Assembly (NCBI GenBank): GCA_015067885.1
Contig: SVLO01000001.1
Location: forward strand, 1-64,000
Direction: 5' to 3'
DNA length: 64,000 nucleotides
Origin: Oscillospiraceae bacterium
Lineage (GTDB): Bacteria > Bacillota > Clostridia > Oscillospirales > Oscillospiraceae
Position 1 is the first letter of the stretch. Each line of letters opens with the position of its first letter. The notes beneath the pieces are model-generated. The model searched no databases, was not told the origin of the DNA, and saw only the letters and a program-made list of their open reading frames with translations. Made by a program: the position numbers and the translations under genes. Positions 12,854-17,550 of this stretch are shown here, one piece after another.

Positions 12854-12888
12854 AAAAGCTCGCTTGTCATTTGACAAGCGAGCTTTTT
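12854..12888. terminator. Terminator shared by the aminotransferase gene and tRNA-Ala
   Basis: AAAAGCTCGCTTGTC pairs with its complement around an ATTT loop and is followed by TTTTT. On the other strand it directly follows the tRNA CCA end, so it serves both units. Confidence 0.88.
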
Positions 12889-12963
12889 GGTGGACCTAAT
12901 CGGGATCGAACCGACGACCTTACGGATGCGAACCGTACGCTCTCCCAGCTGAGCTATAGGCCC
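12888..12963 (-). tRNA. tRNA-Ala (anticodon CGC)
   Basis: A 76-nt cloverleaf on the minus strand. The acceptor GGGCCTA pairs with TAGGTCC, and CCA is encoded. The D-arm is AGCTCAGCTGGGAGAGC, the anticodon stem is TACGG/CCGTA with loop TTCGCAT and anticodon CGC at 12930-12928. The T-arm is GTCGGTTCGATCCCGAT. It reads GCG codons, consistent with a GC-rich genome. Confidence 0.95.
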
Positions 12964-13018: not shown

Positions 13019-13047
13019 CAAAAATGGGCGGGTCTTTCGACCCGCCC
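13019..13047 (-). terminator. Terminator of the phage-derived lysis operon
   Basis: On the minus strand GGGCGGGTC-GAAA-GACCCGCCC is followed by ATTTTTG, 13 bases after the endolysin stop codon. It bounds the leftward operon on its distal side. Confidence 0.9.
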
Positions 13048-13059
13048 AAGGGCATTGGG

Positions 13060-13713
13060 TCAGCGGGCCGCCATGATCATGGTGGCCACCTCCTCCCGGG
13101 TGGCAAAGCTGCCCGGGCGGGTGCCGTCGGTGATGCCGGCGGCCTTGGCCTCCGCCATGCGGCTCCAACTGCTGGCGGGTTGGGCGGCCTGGCGGAGCAG
13201 CCAGGCAGTGAGCATGGCCTCAAATTGTTCCTGAGTCAAATCGGTGTCCTCCTCCTTATATGCGGGGCGGTAGGCCCCCACGATGTATTTTTTGTCCCGG
13301 GTGCGGCGCATGACCGCACCGCCGTTGGCCTCGTTCCCTGTGCCGGTGTTGCCGTCGATGGTGGTGATGCATCTACCATCCCAGCTCTCGCACAGGCCCA
13401 CGTGGGCGGCGTTGCCCCGGCCGTTGAAGTTGAAAAAGATAATGTCCCCGGGGCGGTAGTCCGTTACCCGCTGCTTTTTGTGGAAGTCCAGCAGGGCGGG
13501 GCAGTAGGCGGTCTGGCTGCCGCCGAAGAACAGCTCCGCCGCCCCGGCCTGACGGAACACCCACCACAGAAATGCGCAGCACCAGGGATAGGCGCTGCCC
13601 GATACCTCCCGCCGGTAGTAGGCGGTATTGTATTTGACACGGTTGGAGCCGGCGGGGGACTCCGTTACCCCCAGCTCGCCCCGGGCGACAGCCAAAATCC
13701 GTTCCGCGGTCAT
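13060..13713 (-). CDS. Phage-type endolysin with N-terminal CHAP amidase domain
   Basis: A 217-residue protein without signal peptide, expected to need a holin to reach the wall. The CHAP cysteine-peptidase/amidase domain has YPWCCAFLWWVF (catalytic Cys at about residue 46) and NAAHVGLCES (catalytic His at about 104), followed by TIDGNTG. The C-terminal ~55 residues (SSWSRMAEAKAAGITDGTRP, ending in REEVATMIMAAR) resemble one SLH-like repeat, a possible wall-binding piece. It is the last gene of the leftward cassette, overlaps the holin stop by four bases, and precedes a strong terminator. All key residues are present. Confidence 0.9.
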   Translation of the reverse strand: MTAERILAVARGELGVTESPAGSNRVKYNTAYYRREVSGSAYPWCCAFLWWVFRQAGAAELFFGGSQTAYCPALLDFHKKQRVTDYRPGDIIFFNFNGRGNAAHVGLCESWDGRCITTIDGNTGTGNEANGGAVMRRTRDKKYIVGAYRPAYKEEDTDLTQEQFEAMLTAWLLRQAAQPASSWSRMAEAKAAGITDGTRPGSFATREEVATMIMAAR

Positions 13714-14015
13714 TGGGCCTCCTCCGCTGCGGCGTGCAGCTTCAGCACGGCGGCCTCCACCGCGTCCCGCACCTGTCGCAGGTTCACGTCATAGCCCTGC
13801 TCAGCCAGCAGGGACAGGGCGTACTGCAGGCGCTCCTGACCGCTGCATTGGCTGAACAACTGCTGGGCCGCTGCCACGGCGACGTCCACCCAGCGCAGCA
13901 GGTCGCTGCGCTGTTCGGCGGTGGTTTTGCTGCGCAGCCAGGGGATAAGGAACAGGCTGACCGCTACCGCGGCCGCGGCCACCAGGGCGTTGATCAATGG
14001 GGTCAAATCAATCAT
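13710..14015 (-). CDS. Phage holin, LL-H-like
   Basis: A 101-residue protein with one N-terminal membrane segment (NALVAAAAVAVSLFLIPWLRS) and a charged helical remainder, matching the layout of LL-H-family holins (PF09682 type). Holins permeabilise the membrane and release endolysin. ATG 14015 is chosen because AAGGAGGTTTCCT lies before it; the longer frame to 14090 would overlap the upstream gene heavily. It overlaps the preceding small membrane gene by 8 bases and the following endolysin gene by 4, so the three are translationally coupled as a lysis module. Confidence 0.8.
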   Translation of the reverse strand: MIDLTPLINALVAAAAVAVSLFLIPWLRSKTTAEQRSDLLRWVDVAVAAAQQLFSQCSGQERLQYALSLLAEQGYDVNLRQVRDAVEAAVLKLHAAAEEAQ

Positions 14016-14247
14016 AGGAAACCTCCTTATTGGTGTGTTTTTTGTCGCAGAGGGCCGTTTTGGCGAACATGATGACAAGCTCGCCGCCAAAAAAGGCCAG
14101 GGTCACGCCCAGCAGGGCGGCGGGGTCGTGGCCGGTGCGGGACAGGATGCGAAAGGCCCAAAGGCAGCAGCCCGCCCCGCCCGCCACACAGACCACCACC
14201 ATTACCTTGCTGAACAGATGGGGGACGGACCTTATTTGCCCCAGCAC
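14008..14247 (-). CDS. Small membrane protein of the phage-derived cassette
   Basis: A 79-residue protein with two hydrophobic segments (SKVMVVVCVAGGAGCCLWAF and LLGVTLAFFGGELVIMF). GTG 14247 is the start, with GGAGG six bases upstream, and its first codons overlap the end of the 58-residue gene. Two-segment small proteins next to a holin are often a second holin or an antiholin, but no motif proves this. It overlaps the LL-H-like holin gene by 8 bases. Confidence 0.65.
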   Translation of the reverse strand: MLGQIRSVPHLFSKVMVVVCVAGGAGCCLWAFRILSRTGHDPAALLGVTLAFFGGELVIMFAKTALCDKKHTNKEVSYD

Positions 14248-14408
14248 GTGGTTGCCTCCTGTGTCTGGATGGCCTCATACTCTGTTTGGGGGATGGGATG
14301 GTAGCTGTCGGGGCTGGCACCCTCCGCCAGCCAAATGATCGTGCCATAGTCCCTGCCGTTGGTCAGCACCGTACCCTCATCGGCATACAAAACGGTTCTT
14401 ACTTTCAT
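14232..14408 (-). CDS. Small phage-type protein of unknown function (58 aa)
   Basis: An open frame of 58 codons starting MKVRTVLYADEGTVLTNG and ending TTCWGK. The ribosome site AAGGAGGATAACGT is one of the best in the window, so the gene is very likely translated. It overlaps the next gene by 16 bases. Small acidic proteins in this position, between tail/baseplate genes and the holin, are common in Clostridia phages; none that I can name matches clearly. Confidence 0.6.
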   Translation of the reverse strand: MKVRTVLYADEGTVLTNGRDYGTIIWLAEGASPDSYHPIPQTEYEAIQTQEATTCWGK

Positions 14409-14420
14409 ACGTTATCCTCC

Positions 14421-15113
14421 TTACGAAAGAACAAAGGTCCAATTGGGTTTTGCCGCGATCAGCGCCGCCCATTCATCGTCAGTGTACGCGGCGGTTACCT
14501 TGGCCTGATTGAGTGTGACCGTGCCGCTGCCGCTCAGCCGGTCAACAAAGGCGGCGATACGCTCCGCGTCCGTCTGCTCGGTGTATTTCACCAATACCAC
14601 GGTGTAGACGAAGCCCTCGGCGAATATTACGGTATCCCCCGTTTTGCCCACGTCATGAATGGTAACAACGCCGTCCTGCGTGCGGGAGTACCGTTCCGGG
14701 ATACGCTTGGTACCCATGGAAAAATATGTGATGGCATTGCTGGCCGGGTTGGCCTTCATGGTAAAACCGCCCGGCATACCGAAGGCTCTGTTGTCAAAGC
14801 AGAACAGCATCAAAGCGTCCTGCGTGTCGGAAGCAAGCGGGTCAAAACCGATGACCTGTACGGCGTCCGGCTCAAAGGGGCAATAGAAGGAAACCGAAGG
14901 GGTACCATCGCCCACAAAGCTATGGGCAAAGTGTTTGGCGGCGCAGATGGCTGCACCGGCGTCAATGCCGTCCGCCCTGCCCCGGTCATACTGCGCGGTC
15001 AGGTCCGCCGCGGTGTAGCCCTTGCCTGCCACAAGAATATTCCGGTCACAATATTTGCCCGCCGTGGGCAGCTCGATGGTGGTGCCGCCAGCCACTTCAA
15101 AGAGAAAGCTCAT
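14421..15113 (-). CDS. Phage tail/baseplate-like protein of unknown function
   Basis: A 230-residue protein, mostly predicted beta and soluble. The N-terminal stretch ILVAGKGYTAADLTAQYDRG resembles leader segments of phage structural proteins that sit just upstream of holins in Clostridia phages. I cannot name a family. It overlaps the upstream 193-residue gene by four bases and is followed after 12 bases by the 58-residue gene. The structural (tail-tip or fibre-like) role is inferred from position and wording only. Confidence 0.6.
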   Translation of the reverse strand: MSFLFEVAGGTTIELPTAGKYCDRNILVAGKGYTAADLTAQYDRGRADGIDAGAAICAAKHFAHSFVGDGTPSVSFYCPFEPDAVQVIGFDPLASDTQDALMLFCFDNRAFGMPGGFTMKANPASNAITYFSMGTKRIPERYSRTQDGVVTIHDVGKTGDTVIFAEGFVYTVVLVKYTEQTDAERIAAFVDRLSGSGTVTLNQAKVTAAYTDDEWAALIAAKPNWTFVLS

Positions 15114-15691
15114 GCCATCACCACCTCCCCCTGATAGGCGGGCAGGGCGGCCAGCACCGCCGCCACCAGGGCGGAGGTGTCCGCTTCGGTCAGCTCGTAG
15201 GCGGGTCCGATGGCGGGCAAACCGCTGTCCGTGTACGCCTCACCGTTCCACAGCCACCAGCGCTGCTCCCGAATGATGGGCGGGTGGTTGACATAACTCT
15301 CCGCATCCTTGCGAATGGCAAGGATGCGCTGCTCGGCATCGGAGAATTCCGTGGGCAGGGTGGGCCACTGCCTGTCCCCGCACAGGGAGCGGGGGACGAA
15401 CAGGGTGATGATGTTGGTGTGGCGGATCACCTCGCCCTGACTGCCACGCAGCTGCATACGGTAAAAACCGCCGGGGCCAAGCTGCTGGGCCGTGAGCAGG
15501 ACGGATACGTTGCCGTTTTGGCGCCGCTCCAGGGGCCAAAGGTCCATCCGGTCGTCCACCTGCACCAGCATGGTCCAGTCCCAGCCCTCGGGCAGGGGGC
15601 CGGTGACGGTCAGTTCCCGGCTCAGGTGGTCGTTTTGCTGCAGGGTGAACCGGGGGTCGGTCCAGATCTGCCAGTCGTTGAATTGAATCAT
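15110..15691 (-). CDS. Phage baseplate-like protein (upper-baseplate/BppU-like layout)
   Basis: A 193-residue protein. The N-terminus (MIQFNDWQIWTDPRF, then LTVTGPLPEGWDWTMLVQV) is Trp-rich and beta-structured. It resembles the N-terminal domain of baseplate proteins that handle RBP attachment in Gram-positive siphophages. RILAIRKDAESYVNHPP begins a helical C-terminal part. ATG 15691 is preceded by AAGGAGGTTTTCT. It lies between the sigma-like regulator and the 230-residue gene. The assignment rests on general resemblance, not on a catalytic motif. Confidence 0.55.
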   Translation of the reverse strand: MIQFNDWQIWTDPRFTLQQNDHLSRELTVTGPLPEGWDWTMLVQVDDRMDLWPLERRQNGNVSVLLTAQQLGPGGFYRMQLRGSQGEVIRHTNIITLFVPRSLCGDRQWPTLPTEFSDAEQRILAIRKDAESYVNHPPIIREQRWWLWNGEAYTDSGLPAIGPAYELTEADTSALVAAVLAALPAYQGEVVMA

Positions 15692-15702
15692 AGAAAACCT
15701 CC

Positions 15703-16026
15703 TTATTTCATGTGTTTGAGATAACGCTCGGCACCATAGCGCAGACAGCGCTGCAGCTTTCGTTCCCCGCGCAGGATGGTGCGGGAAACGGTGGAGGGGT
15801 CCACACCCAACCGGCGGGCGATTTCCGTCTGGCTGAGCTGCTGGACGTAATACATGGTCAGCAGCGTGCGCTGACGGGGGGTGATGTCCTCGTTCAGACA
15901 GCGGATCAAATTCTGCTTGAGCAGATTCAGGCTGTCGGTATTGGTATTTTCCTCGGACAGGCGGCGCATATAGGTCACCATGTCCCGGCTGTAGGGTTGC
16001 CCCCGTCGATAGCGCGGGTCAGCCAT
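15703..16026 (-). CDS. Sigma-region-4-like / ArpU-type phage regulator
   Basis: A 107-residue basic protein. Its C-terminal half is a clear sigma-70 region 4 HTH: RTLLTMYYVQQLSQTEIARR then LGVDPSTVSRTILRGERKL. There is no region 2, so it cannot be a complete sigma factor. Proteins of this kind (ArpU/RinA-like) often control late operons in Gram-positive phages. It overlaps the upstream 76-residue gene by 8 bases. Within this cassette it may act on its own operon or elsewhere on the chromosome; no second promoter is evident downstream of it. Confidence 0.75.
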   Translation of the reverse strand: MADPRYRRGQPYSRDMVTYMRRLSEENTNTDSLNLLKQNLIRCLNEDITPRQRTLLTMYYVQQLSQTEIARRLGVDPSTVSRTILRGERKLQRCLRYGAERYLKHMK

Positions 16027-16249
16027 GTGGGGTACCTCCTTTGTTGTAATAGCGCTCGCACACCCGGGCGGTCTGCTGCGCCTGGCGGCGCATCTCGATC
16101 AGCGGCGCCAGCCGCCCATCCAGCAAAATCTGCTCGGTGCGGTCCTGGGTCTTGCTACGGCGCAGGGTCAACTCCCTGATGCGCCCGGCCAGCAGCTGCG
16201 CCCCATGGCGGTATTGGGCCGCCAGCTCACTTAGGGTCAAATCTGCCAC
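16019..16249 (-). CDS. Small helical protein of the phage-derived cassette (76 aa)
   Basis: The translation begins MADLTLSELAAQYRHGAQLL and continues as a charged, probably coiled-coil helix to RVCERYYNKGG. GTG 16249 is the start because a GGAGGGGG site precedes it; the frame is open further upstream but there it overlaps the zinc-ribbon gene completely. It overlaps its neighbours by 13 bases upstream and 8 downstream, which suggests translational coupling. Similar small helical proteins occur beside ArpU-like genes in phages. The function is unknown. Confidence 0.6.
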   Translation of the reverse strand: MADLTLSELAAQYRHGAQLLAGRIRELTLRRSKTQDRTEQILLDGRLAPLIEMRRQAQQTARVCERYYNKGGTPHG

Positions 16250-16485
16250 CCCCCCTCCGGCGGAAGGACGCTTACCTGCATGGCAAGGGCTGCCTCCACC
16301 GGGAAACGCTCCAGCCAACGGCCCGCCAAGGCCCGGAAGCAGTCGGTGCAGATTGCCGCGCCTTCCCATACAAAGCGGCTCTCCCCGGGATACAGCTCCC
16401 CGCGACAACGGGGACACAGCCCTTCCGGCGGACATTGCTGCGCATCCCGCAGGGGGGACAGCAGCCCCGCGGTTCCCGGTGTCAC
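16237..16485 (-). CDS. Small zinc-ribbon protein (82 aa)
   Basis: Two CxxC pairs (CPRC and CTDC, 20 residues apart) frame a short beta segment, a zinc-ribbon or LIM-like knuckle. The remainder is helical. GTG 16485 is preceded by GGGAGGTGGGG and overlaps the stop codon of an 11-codon leader ORF in a GTGA arrangement. An alternative TTG start at 16506 lacks a ribosome site. It is the first real gene of the leftward cassette, in the position of a phage early gene. It could be a DNA- or RNA-binding or adaptor protein; nothing more can be said. Confidence 0.6.
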   Translation of the reverse strand: MTPGTAGLLSPLRDAQQCPPEGLCPRCRGELYPGESRFVWEGAAICTDCFRALAGRWLERFPVEAALAMQVSVLPPEGGWQI

Positions 16486-16517
16486 TTGGCCCCACCTCCC
16501 AAACAAATCAAATCCAT
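16482..16517 (-). CDS. Leader ORF of 11 codons coupled to the zinc-ribbon gene
   Basis: ATG 16517 has the best ribosome site of the operon (AAGGAGGAACACG). The frame encodes MDLICLGGGAK and its TGA overlaps the GTG start of the zinc-ribbon gene. Either it is a translational-coupling leader, or the peptide itself acts. Translation is inferred from the ribosome site alone. Confidence 0.45.
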   Translation of the reverse strand: MDLICLGGGAK

Positions 16518-16579
16518 CGTGTTCCTCCTTTCAGTCCCGATTATGGTACCTGTAATCTGCTATTCTGCAGACACAGACA

Positions 16580-16727
16580 ATTCAATTGAGTGTCAGCCAG
16601 CCGCGCAAACAACTCAATTGAGTAGTTACAAGCGTAATATAAACTCGATTGAGTAATTTGTCAAGAGGTAAAATGAAAAAATTACTCAATCTAGTAATTT
16701 CTTCTTGCAACAGAAACTCAATTGCGC
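16580..16727. promoter_or_regulatory. Five related operators of the XRE repressor switch
   Basis: Copies of ACTCAATTGAGT: site 1 about 16580-16592 (TTCAATTGAGT), site 2 16612-16623 (perfect), site 3 16643-16654 (ACTCGATTGAGT), site 4 16684-16695 (ACTCAATCTAGT), site 5 16716-16727 (ACTCAATTGCGC). Site 3 lies inside the spacer of the leftward promoter and site 5 inside the spacer of the rightward promoter. The arrangement is that of a lambdoid-like bistable switch, with the XRE protein encoded at 16781 as the obvious ligand. Confidence 0.85.
16636..16664 (-). promoter_or_regulatory. Leftward promoter of the lysis cassette
   Basis: Read leftward: TTGACA (16664-16659), a 17-bp spacer, TATATT (16641-16636). 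This is close to consensus, so the operon would be strongly transcribed unless repressed. Operator 3 occupies the spacer and operator 2 lies just past the start site. Confidence 0.88.
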
Positions 16728-16733
16728 TATAAT
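16705..16733 (+). promoter_or_regulatory. Rightward promoter of the repressor gene
   Basis: TTGCAA (16705-16710), a 17-bp spacer containing operator 5, TATAAT (16728-16733). The short 5' leader carries a perfect ACGGCG-AAA-CGCCGT hairpin at 16746-16760, just ahead of the ribosome site. Confidence 0.88.
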
Positions 16734-16780
16734 GGGGACAGAGAAACGGCGAAACGCCGTACCAGATGGGAGGACGCAAT

Positions 16781-17119
16781 ATGCCCCAGGTAGATTATTT
16801 GAAGGAAGAAATTTCCAGACAGTACGGAAACGTCTCCAAGTTTGCCGAGCATATCGGCGTGCCGGCCACCACCATCCGTAATATGTTTACCCGCGGGTTG
16901 GACGGCATAGGGACCGGGACCATGGTAAGAATCTGCGATGCGCTGCACATTGACATCAGCTCCCTTATGCGGGACGAGCCGAAAAAGCAGCTGGACTTCG
17001 ATGATTTTACCTACGCGCTTTACAATGAGTCCCGCGACCTGCCTGAGGAGAAGAAGCAAATGCTGCTGGAGATGGCGCGCTTCTTCAATAAGGAGCTGCA
17101 AAACGGAAAGGAAGGTTGA
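16781..17119 (+). CDS. XRE-family (cI-like) transcriptional repressor
   Basis: A 112-residue protein. The N-terminal HTH reads NVSKFAEHIGVPATTIRNMF at about residues 14-33, followed by an ICDALHIDISSLM helix typical of XRE domains. The C-terminal ~45 residues are acidic and helical (DDFTYALYNESRDLPEEKKQ), a likely oligomerisation or protease-recognition tail. It has no LexA/cI-type self-cleaving peptidase domain, so inactivation probably needs the ImmA-like protein encoded three bases downstream. The start ATG 16781 follows GGGAGGACGCAAT. An operator within its own promoter implies autoregulation. Confidence 0.92.
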   Translation: MPQVDYLKEEISRQYGNVSKFAEHIGVPATTIRNMFTRGLDGIGTGTMVRICDALHIDISSLMRDEPKKQLDFDDFTYALYNESRDLPEEKKQMLLEMARFFNKELQNGKEG

Positions 17120-17121
17120 CT

Positions 17122-17550
17122 ATGGATAAAACTCTGGCCCTGTATGACAAATTGAACCGCGCGGGGGTCAGATTTTACCACTGGGACTTGGATGACCGGC
17201 AGGCTGCCACCATTGAGCTGGACGGCCGGTATGCCATTTTCATGGATTTTGACAACATCCACACCAGCGCGGAAGAGCGGGTGTTGGTGGCGCACGAGGG
17301 GGGCCACGTGGCCACCGGCGCTACCCATCGGGTGAGCAGTCCCTACGATTTGATCGCCAAGCATGAGTACAAGGCGGACAAGTGGGCCATTGAGCAGCTG
17401 ATCCCGGCCCGGGAGCTGGATGCCGCCGTGGCGCAGGGGTACACCGATTTGTATAGCCTGGCGGAGCATTTCGATGTGACGGTGCCTTTTATGGAGAAGG
17501 CGGTCAGCCTGCACACCCATGGAAATCTGTCTACGCGCCTGAACTTTTAA
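17122..17550 (+). CDS. ImmA/IrrE-family metallopeptidase
   Basis: A 142-residue protein with the zinc-protease motif HEGGH at about residues 58-62 and a downstream EYKADKWA that supplies the third ligand. ImmA-type proteases cleave the cognate XRE repressor when activated, for example after DNA damage, as in ICEBs1. ATG 17122 follows GGAAGG and starts two bases after the repressor stop, a fixed repressor-protease pair. It faces the lysis cassette across the operator region. All catalytic residues seem intact. The activating signal cannot be read from sequence. Confidence 0.92.
   Translation: MDKTLALYDKLNRAGVRFYHWDLDDRQAATIELDGRYAIFMDFDNIHTSAEERVLVAHEGGHVATGATHRVSSPYDLIAKHEYKADKWAIEQLIPARELDAAVAQGYTDLYSLAEHFDVTVPFMEKAVSLHTHGNLSTRLNF

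Follow-up and report, generated by a model that had tools for sequence, protein, structure and literature searches.

A phage-derived switch, fibre and lysis cassette of an Oscillospiraceae bacterium: probable control and release locus of a split contractile particle resembling gene transfer agents

Introduction

What is released by a phage-derived cassette that has a switch, fibre genes and lysis genes and no genes for a capsid or a tail tube? This question is raised by a locus in the first 64,000 nucleotides of contig SVLO01000001.1 of an Oscillospiraceae bacterium (assembly GCA_015067885.1); the whole of this stretch is called the window below. An XRE-type repressor and an ImmA/IrrE-type metalloprotease lie there beside a divergent operon that encodes, among other products, a sigma-region-4-like protein (sig), two tail-fibre-type proteins (p193 and p230), a holin and an endolysin. 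A preliminary description of the window had taken the locus for a self-contained lysis device. The analysis presented here indicates that the cassette probably provides control, fibres and release for a domesticated contractile particle of the gene transfer agent (GTA) type, split over the genome, with its structural genes at another locus.

In the proposed scheme, the repressor would sit on five operators and shut the operon promoter, as the anatomy of the region suggests, and ImmA, judging from its family, would remove the repressor after stress. The operon would then supply sig, which may turn on the unlinked structural cluster, as co-occurrence and linkage of the genes suggest. This cluster would make a headed contractile particle, probably packaging host DNA. 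The fibre proteins of the cassette would finish the baseplate, since the cluster ends at gpI with no recognised fibre gene. As the last step, the holin and endolysin would burst the cell.

Structural genes at a second locus

A sheath search of 20 genomes gave one match each in the genome of the window (G000) and in two goat-caecum metagenome-assembled genomes labelled Oscillospiraceae, G300 and G301, whose copies of the cassette lie at loci L026 and L027, respectively. G000 is 87% complete, so absences there are not absolute. The structural cluster (contig C12, one strand) runs in the order TerL, portal, protease-like protein, decoration protein, capsid, three connector-size open reading frames (ORFs), sheath, tube, XkdN-like protein, an 85-amino-acid protein, a short variable ORF at the tape-measure position, LysM, gpD, V, W, J and I. 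PHROG hidden Markov models (HMMs) identified TerL (E 3.8e-45), portal (2.3e-160) and capsid (8.3e-114) in G000, and the decoration gene matches a PHROG virion structural protein (3.1e-18). An identical copy of the TerL gene is present in L168. In the G300 copies, J (Baseplate_J), the hub gpD, LysM and the sheath were identified by Pfam/PHROG. The protease, tube, XkdN, V, W and I genes are presumably what their names say, being named from gene order and from the usual make-up of such clusters; the tube gene gave no Pfam or PHROG function and is named by position, as are some small genes. The tape-measure family PF10145 was searched for in 8 genomes; it had a match in 3 of them, and none in G000, G300 and G301.

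In all three genomes the structural cluster is flanked by GBE/glgA (glycogen genes) and hemW. Both loci of G300 apparently lie on one 250,163-base contig, about 70 kb apart. The same cluster order as in G000 was found in four further genomes of the genus (G039, G275, G128, G237) and in G232 of another genus. In none of these five could a gene for a fibre or for lysis be recognised beyond gpI on its downstream side. The TerL-side flank GBE+glgA is common to G000, G300, G301, G039, G275 and G128, with GBE also in G237; on the gpI side the window lineage differs from the other genomes of the genus.

Fibre, lysis, integrase and repressor genes were not recognised in the structural clusters of G000, G300 and G301, the ORFs of which were read by eye. 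The cassette therefore partly fills the gaps of the cluster. Thus, the locus is not self-contained as had been supposed, since the genome holds a head and contractile-tail cluster with complementary gaps, and the absence of virion genes holds for the cassette locus and not for the genome. Of the functions proposed earlier, that of a helper for a tailocin elsewhere came closest in that a partner exists; this partner, however, has head genes and a packaging ATPase, and for this reason a GTA- or PBSX-like particle is preferred to a plain tailocin. An R-type tailocin is a tail without head genes, and here TerL, portal and capsid are present and conserved. Two features by which GTAs are recognised, as listed in the available part of PMC9662315, were found. 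The particle proteins are those of tailed phages (TerL, portal, capsid, decoration protein, J, hub, LysM and sheath by Pfam/PHROG), and their genes are chromosomal and distributed over several loci, two in G000, G300 and G301 and three sites in G039.

The putative activator and the particle

Among 300 genomes of the family, the sig family (E<=1e-6) was present in 96 of the 106 capsid-positive and in 20 of the 194 capsid-negative genomes, with G081, G216, G235 and G295 counted as capsid-negative. Genus effects were removed by permutation within genera. In 21 mixed genera with 87 genomes, 42 genomes held both genes as against 28.4 expected, and none of 100,000 permutations was as high (p<=1e-5); 36 genomes had neither gene. 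G235 and G295 were again counted as negative in this comparison, and 13 of the 300 genomes are not in the genus list, so the mixed genera may lack a member.

Physical linkage was seen in 3 of 8 contigs that had been picked for holding both sig and capsid (L147, L149 and L153, other genera): here sig is on the strand of gpI and at most 1.8 kb downstream of it. In L147, L148 and L149, the three contigs read for it, sig is followed by an ORF like a GH25 lysozyme. Close relatives of sig amounted to 1 weak record in 50,697 phages, and none was confirmed in IMG/VR; the single-protein scans of IMG/VR with p193, capsid and sig catch close relatives only, and distant ones may have been missed. Sig is taken as a putative host-kept regulator tied to the particle. 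The window lineage appears to have joined this activator, the fibre and lysis under one switch.

The operators of the switch are copies of the palindrome ACTCAATTGAGT. At up to 2 mismatches it occurs at five sites, all of them in the intergenic array, and nowhere else in the 64-kb window. With 1 mismatch allowed, there were 7 strand-counted matches against 0.31 expected, a number reached in 0 of 100 shuffles. L026 and L027 have five operator-like palindromes each at a similar spacing, and in all three genomes one copy lies between the -35 and -10 elements of the operon promoter. This layout is what would be expected for a repressor-blocked promoter. In another genus, an ORF beside gpI on the opposite strand (L149:14962-15747) reads by eye as an S24-type phage repressor and may be an alternative particle switch there.

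The exchangeable fibre region

The middle of the cassette varies among the three genomes while its ends stay, and the switch, activator and lysis genes therefore seem fixed and the fibre exchangeable. In L027 the N-terminus of p193 runs on into a 714-amino-acid protein with two repeated lectin-like segments (by eye). p230, the 58-amino-acid protein p58 and the two-helix membrane protein TM2 have no match in the L027 cassette, and TM2 has none in L026 either. The first ~160 residues of p193 head fibre proteins of 666-766 amino acids elsewhere, and for this reason 'tail-fibre-type' fits p193 and p230 better than the earlier label 'baseplate-like'; neither gave a Pfam or PHROG family at E<=1. Some of the longer fibres that carry this domain in other family members are collagen-rich. 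A late gene of the IMG/VR contigs L028-L030 has the N-terminus of p230 (43% identity in 70 aligned columns) and a different C-terminus. No match to p193 was found among solved structures or in the IMG/VR scan, and the phage collection held one record at 34%.

Surrounded by host genes alone, a fibre of the p193 type together with an amidase was found in G039 and in the g23 genomes G232 and G271. In G039 the fibre, a leucine-rich-repeat protein and the amidase lie at yet another site, without regulators. G271 has a second pair of p73-sig type (p73 being the 73-amino-acid protein beside sig), and downstream of this pair are a collagen fibre gene and an amidase gene. In G232, which has two sheath matches, locus L109 (G232:C40) carries a collagen-rich p193-type fibre, an amidase and a holin (PF05105) alone between host genes.

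Observations that weigh against a split particle

Several results run counter to the assignment of the cassette to the particle. At E<=1e-6, sig is present in 6 capsid-negative genomes of the mixed genera and missing from 3 that are capsid-positive. Distant sigma-region-4 families exist in phages, with a best PHROG E-value of 6.5e-9 against sig. No fibre or lysis gene was recognised in 8 sig loci read gene by gene, and 20 sig loci (L088-L107) gave no match when p193, holin and endolysin of the window were used as tblastn queries. The structural cluster contains no operators, and reading by eye upstream of TerL and the fibre genes gave no convincing shared promoter motif; sig is thus tied to the cluster by statistics. 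ImmA at E<=1e-15 was not found in 5 other sampled genomes of the genus, from which it follows that the switch is probably not ancestral. L112, an ordinary contractile phage region that has sheath, tube and baseplate J, contains relatives of p193 as well, and of the 12 genomes that match p193 strongly (E<1e-20), 3 lack the capsid gene. In G039 the fibre that stands with the leucine-rich-repeat protein and the amidase (L123:9635-10132) matches p193 over the first ~69 residues only and then appears out of frame, through decay or an assembly error. An apparent stop or split frame was seen in some relatives' clusters (TerL of G173; L161, L164, L165). Finally, a TerS-like gene was not found in G000, G300 and G301, either upstream of TerL or elsewhere.

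Packaging and the possibility of a killing particle

The relatives have an ORF of ~100 amino acids just upstream of TerL, for which the name TerS is tentative. It was present in all 4 other genomes of the genus that were searched, in one of them with an internal TGA in the match. One of two proteins scanned matched PF03592 (Terminase_2) at residues 59-128 of 141 with E 2.9e-4, below the cut-off and without the N-terminal half of the family, and a weak PHROG TerS match (E 0.23) was obtained in one of four. In the available text of PMC12946183, the TerS of FpGTA, the GTA of Faecalibacterium prausnitzii, is reported to be without an obvious DNA-binding domain. The TerL gene of G000 appears to face a divergent host gene. 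In the window lineage, packaging may proceed without TerS, another small protein may replace it, or packaging may have been lost. Loss is argued against by the dN/dS of capsid, portal and TerL (0.05-0.16), which shows that these genes are strongly constrained.

These genes also bear on the serious rival to the GTA-like reading, in which a contractile particle like PBSX or a tailocin, encoded by the two loci, punctures rival cells. The target would then depend on which fibre is carried, and packaged DNA, if any, would be a by-product. A contractile sheath and baseplate, a fibre exchanged between close relatives and the missing TerS-like gene would all suit a weapon. However, all head genes are present and are among the best conserved of the cluster: capsid (96% identity among the three genomes) and portal (93-94%) have no stops and a dN/dS of 0.05-0.07, and TerL has 0.11-0.16. 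Two clusters from another family of the order (L192 and L195) keep head genes where the tail queries match nothing. A killing function is thus regarded as rather unlikely, though it has to be kept in view.

Conservation of the cassette and the weaker alternatives

The cassette is real, intact and conserved. Its genes were confirmed at the positions given in Table 1, with HMM support for the endolysin, holin, sigma region 4, XRE and ImmA proteins. Adjacent genes overlap by 4-16 bases or are separated by gaps of 11-12 bases, and the near-consensus promoter and the terminator named in the preliminary description were both found again. Most of the gene starts given there stand as well; those of the holin and, most likely, of the zinc-ribbon protein had to be moved. 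L026 and L027 were the only 2 of 25 pattern stretches of genome contigs with a confirmed locus related to p193. In both, the cassette lies between tRNA-Ala on the lysis side and an amidohydrolase/dipeptidase gene on the switch side, the same neighbours as in the window, as had been anticipated for a domesticated element; gene order past the tRNA differs between the window and the two relatives. A complete prophage at this site, named in advance as the contrary sign, was found in neither.

Purifying selection, the other expected sign, is evident on the switch, activator and lysis genes. Identity to L026/L027 is 91% for the repressor (dN/dS 0.08-0.10), 96-97% for ImmA (0.02-0.03), 80-81% for sig, 81-82% for the holin and 89-90% (amino acids) for the endolysin (0.06-0.13). 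Across the cassette genes dN/dS is 0.02-0.29; four flanking genes, taken for comparison, have 0.09-0.19. No cassette gene of either relative has an internal stop; the single stop in the zinc-ribbon alignment lies upstream of the relatives' start codon. The overlap of the short leader ORF with the zinc-ribbon start is conserved in the relatives, and the sequence of the leader peptide is not. With intact frames, purifying selection and a conserved site, the cassette has the marks of a domesticated locus, and the earlier view of it as phage-derived, intact and inducible-looking, rather than a decaying prophage, is borne out.

Such a compact cassette, conserved in three genomes, could also act as a stand-alone lysis device without a partner particle, serving altruistic death, vesicle formation or the release of its own fibre or lectin-like proteins. 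The release of such proteins by lysis is a mode similar to type 10 secretion, and the large repeated lectin-like protein seen by eye in L027 would be a fitting cargo. Nevertheless, each of the three genomes keeps one particle cluster without recognised fibre and lysis genes, and the activator family co-varies with the particle capsid. This explanation is considered improbable. An orphan lysis cassette was dropped as a candidate once the sheath and capsid searches had found the particle cluster elsewhere in the genome.

Chance decay of one or more ordinary prophages, with the cassette as a leftover right end, is very improbable. All parts do look phage-derived, and genes that lie side by side in L028-L030 have identities of 61% to TM2, 67% to the holin and 76% to the endolysin. 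However, the relatives' cassette genes are free of internal stops and under the low dN/dS given above, the site is the same in three genomes, and the structural cluster occurs in many genera at 56-81% capsid identity. The prophage remnant was rejected on dN/dS and conservation. Least probable of all is a phage satellite or helper-dependent island borrowing tails from incoming phages: regulators, fibre and lysis genes without a capsid at the locus resemble a reduced island, yet the site is fixed in three genomes, the genome has its own particle cluster, and no integrase or primase was seen among the cassette ORFs (read by eye; att repeats were not searched for), nor any replication or integration gene, a class of genes that GTAs lack, in the ORFs of either locus (by eye; no HMM search was aimed at them).

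Distribution of the capsid gene

The capsid gene gave strong matches in 106 of the 300 sampled family genomes, G000 included, the others being at 56-81% identity. It is single-copy except in G103, where two pieces lie at contig ends, and in G150, which has a weak match besides the strong one. Four further family matches, in G081, G216, G235 and G295, are weak or fragmentary. Among 345 genomes of the order, 58 had the capsid at E<=1e-20, 42 of them outside the family, with identity down to 31%. Capsid and RpoB identity to G000 are correlated (Spearman 0.75, n=61). This comparison covers 61 of the 106 capsid-positive genomes, those with printed RpoB rows whose first piece spans about residues 1-823; it does not include the rows of the same genus and of g44, in which the alignment extends over almost the full query.

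Nineteen of the 20 IMG/VR relatives of the capsid lie on contigs of 4.0-14.1 kb with all or part of the cluster and at most bits of host flank; the remaining one is on a 79-kb contig at 39% identity. The phage collection had the capsid in 11 of its 50,697 records, namely five unannotated faecal 'Bacteriophage sp.' records at 54-68%, of which two were examined, and six named phages at 22-27%. The faecal record L188 (MT835508.1, 46.7 kb) reads as bacterial chromosome, with relatives of the TerL-portal-protease-capsid genes between Rnf/ABC-transporter-like and ribosomal protein genes (named by eye). With regard to random packaging of host DNA, this record of chromosomal DNA around a related head cluster is suggestive only. 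The clusters L192 and L195, in which the head genes alone were matched and the former of which also adjoins a glycogen phosphorylase gene, may be related to the podovirus-like FpGTA type.

A wider reading is possible, though more doubtful than the assignment of the cassette itself. It posits an order-wide, vertically inherited contractile GTA in Oscillospirales, in which a fixed capsid and tail cluster would be fired by a sig-type activator and the fibre and lysis cassette would be movable. The window lineage would have captured a phage-type XRE/ImmA switch, the exchange of fibres would set the DNA partners, and the Oscillospiraceae GTA seen by packaged-DNA sequencing would be included. Outside Alphaproteobacteria, the number of known GTAs is small. 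For the present system, candidate genes can now be named for each of the two halves, together with a candidate regulator and switch, and the capsid gene is kept in about one third of the sampled genomes of one family and in other families of the order. If the particle transfers DNA, these bacteria would have a built-in, stress-gated gene exchange, in which replacement of a single fibre gene could alter the range of partners. If the particle kills, it would be a widespread contractile weapon.

Features of the window locus

Table 1. Coordinates of the cassette and its boundary in the window
Feature	Position	Strand	Remarks
tRNA-Ala(CGC)	12888..12963	-	Boundary on the lysis side, as in L026 and L027
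Operon terminator (intrinsic)	13025..13048	-	10-bp stem and T-run
CHAP endolysin, 217 aa (amino acids)	13060..13713	-	Pfam 2.6e-10; PHROG endolysin 4.5e-31
LLH-type holin, 101 aa	13710..14015	-	PF09682 1.9e-10; PHROG 2.9e-21; start at ATG 14015
Two-helix membrane protein (TM2), 79 aa	14008..14247	-	Adjoins the holin in IMG/VR contigs L028-L030
58-aa protein (p58)	14232..14408	-	Found in L026, no match in L027
p230, putative tail-tip/receptor-binding-type protein	14421..15113	-	
p193, tail-fibre-type protein with N-terminal adaptor domain	15110..15691	-	
Sigma-region-4-like putative activator (sig)	15703..16026	-	PF08281 1.1e-12
73-aa helical protein (p73)	16019..16240	-	Adjoins sig in many relatives
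Zinc-ribbon protein, 82 aa	16237..16485	-	Likely start GTG 16485
Short leader ORF	16482..16517	-	Overlaps the zinc-ribbon start by 4 bases
Array of five operator-like palindromes	16580..16727	.	Sites 16580, 16612, 16643, 16684, 16716
Operon promoter TTGACA-17-TATATT	16636..16664	-	11/12 consensus bases; operator between -35 and -10
Promoter-like site for repressor and ImmA	16705..16733	+	
XRE-type repressor	16766..17119	+	HTH_26 4.7e-5
ImmA/IrrE-type metalloprotease	17116..17550	+	PHROG metalloprotease 9.9e-19; Peptidase_M78 2.9e-7

Comparison with known systems

ImmR/ImmA of ICEBs1 is a repressor-protease switch of the XRE/ImmA type. The window locus resembles it in having a repressor-protease pair beside an operator array and a divergent operon; there, however, the switch faces a conjugative element, and in the window an activator, fibre and lysis operon. 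PBSX of Bacillus subtilis is a defective headed contractile particle encoded by a repressor-controlled element with lysis genes in one continuous locus. The likeness lies in a predicted headed contractile particle, a probable repressor-controlled induction and the lysis genes, whereas the genes of the window system are distributed over two or three loci. RcGTA and CcGTA have non-contractile tails, and their activator family differs from sig. The particle genes of these alphaproteobacterial GTAs are distributed over several chromosomal loci (PMC9662315), as in the window system. The GTAs are vertically inherited, have a dedicated activator and are released by lysis, features that would be shared by the window system if the reading given here holds; their hosts belong to another phylum.

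Further comparison is with systems treated in PMC12946183, as far as its available text goes. PBSX is stated there not to inject its packaged DNA. The structural operon of FpGTA encodes TerS, TerL, portal, scaffold and capsid, and a second operon of 5.5 kb, ~125 kb away in one strain, encodes baseplate, tail fibre, receptor-binding protein (RBP), holin and endolysin (PMC12946183). FpGTA is described as most likely podovirus-like, and particles of ~40 nm with ~9 kb of DNA have been shown (PMC12946183; Nat Commun 2026). GTA-like packaging in Oscillospiraceae (Onthomonas) accounts for 3 of 25 events in that source; the Onthomonas genome and three others were searched there, and a strong candidate operon is reported in one, F. 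prausnitzii (PMC12946183). A description of a contractile GTA in Oscillospirales was not found in the literature searched.

By description, not by sequence, the window system resembles FpGTA, its nearest published counterpart, in its split into two operons, in a second locus with fibre or RBP, holin and endolysin genes, and in its occurrence in gut Clostridia. It differs in that FpGTA is most likely podovirus-like, whereas the window system has a sheath and Baseplate_J, and in that the second locus of the window adds the repressor/ImmA switch, the sigma-like activator and the operators. The main text on FpGTA (PMC12946183) contains none of the words sheath, myovirus and repressor. The system of the window, GTA-like, contractile and with an apparently integrated stress switch, is accordingly read as a putative variant that stands beside FpGTA.

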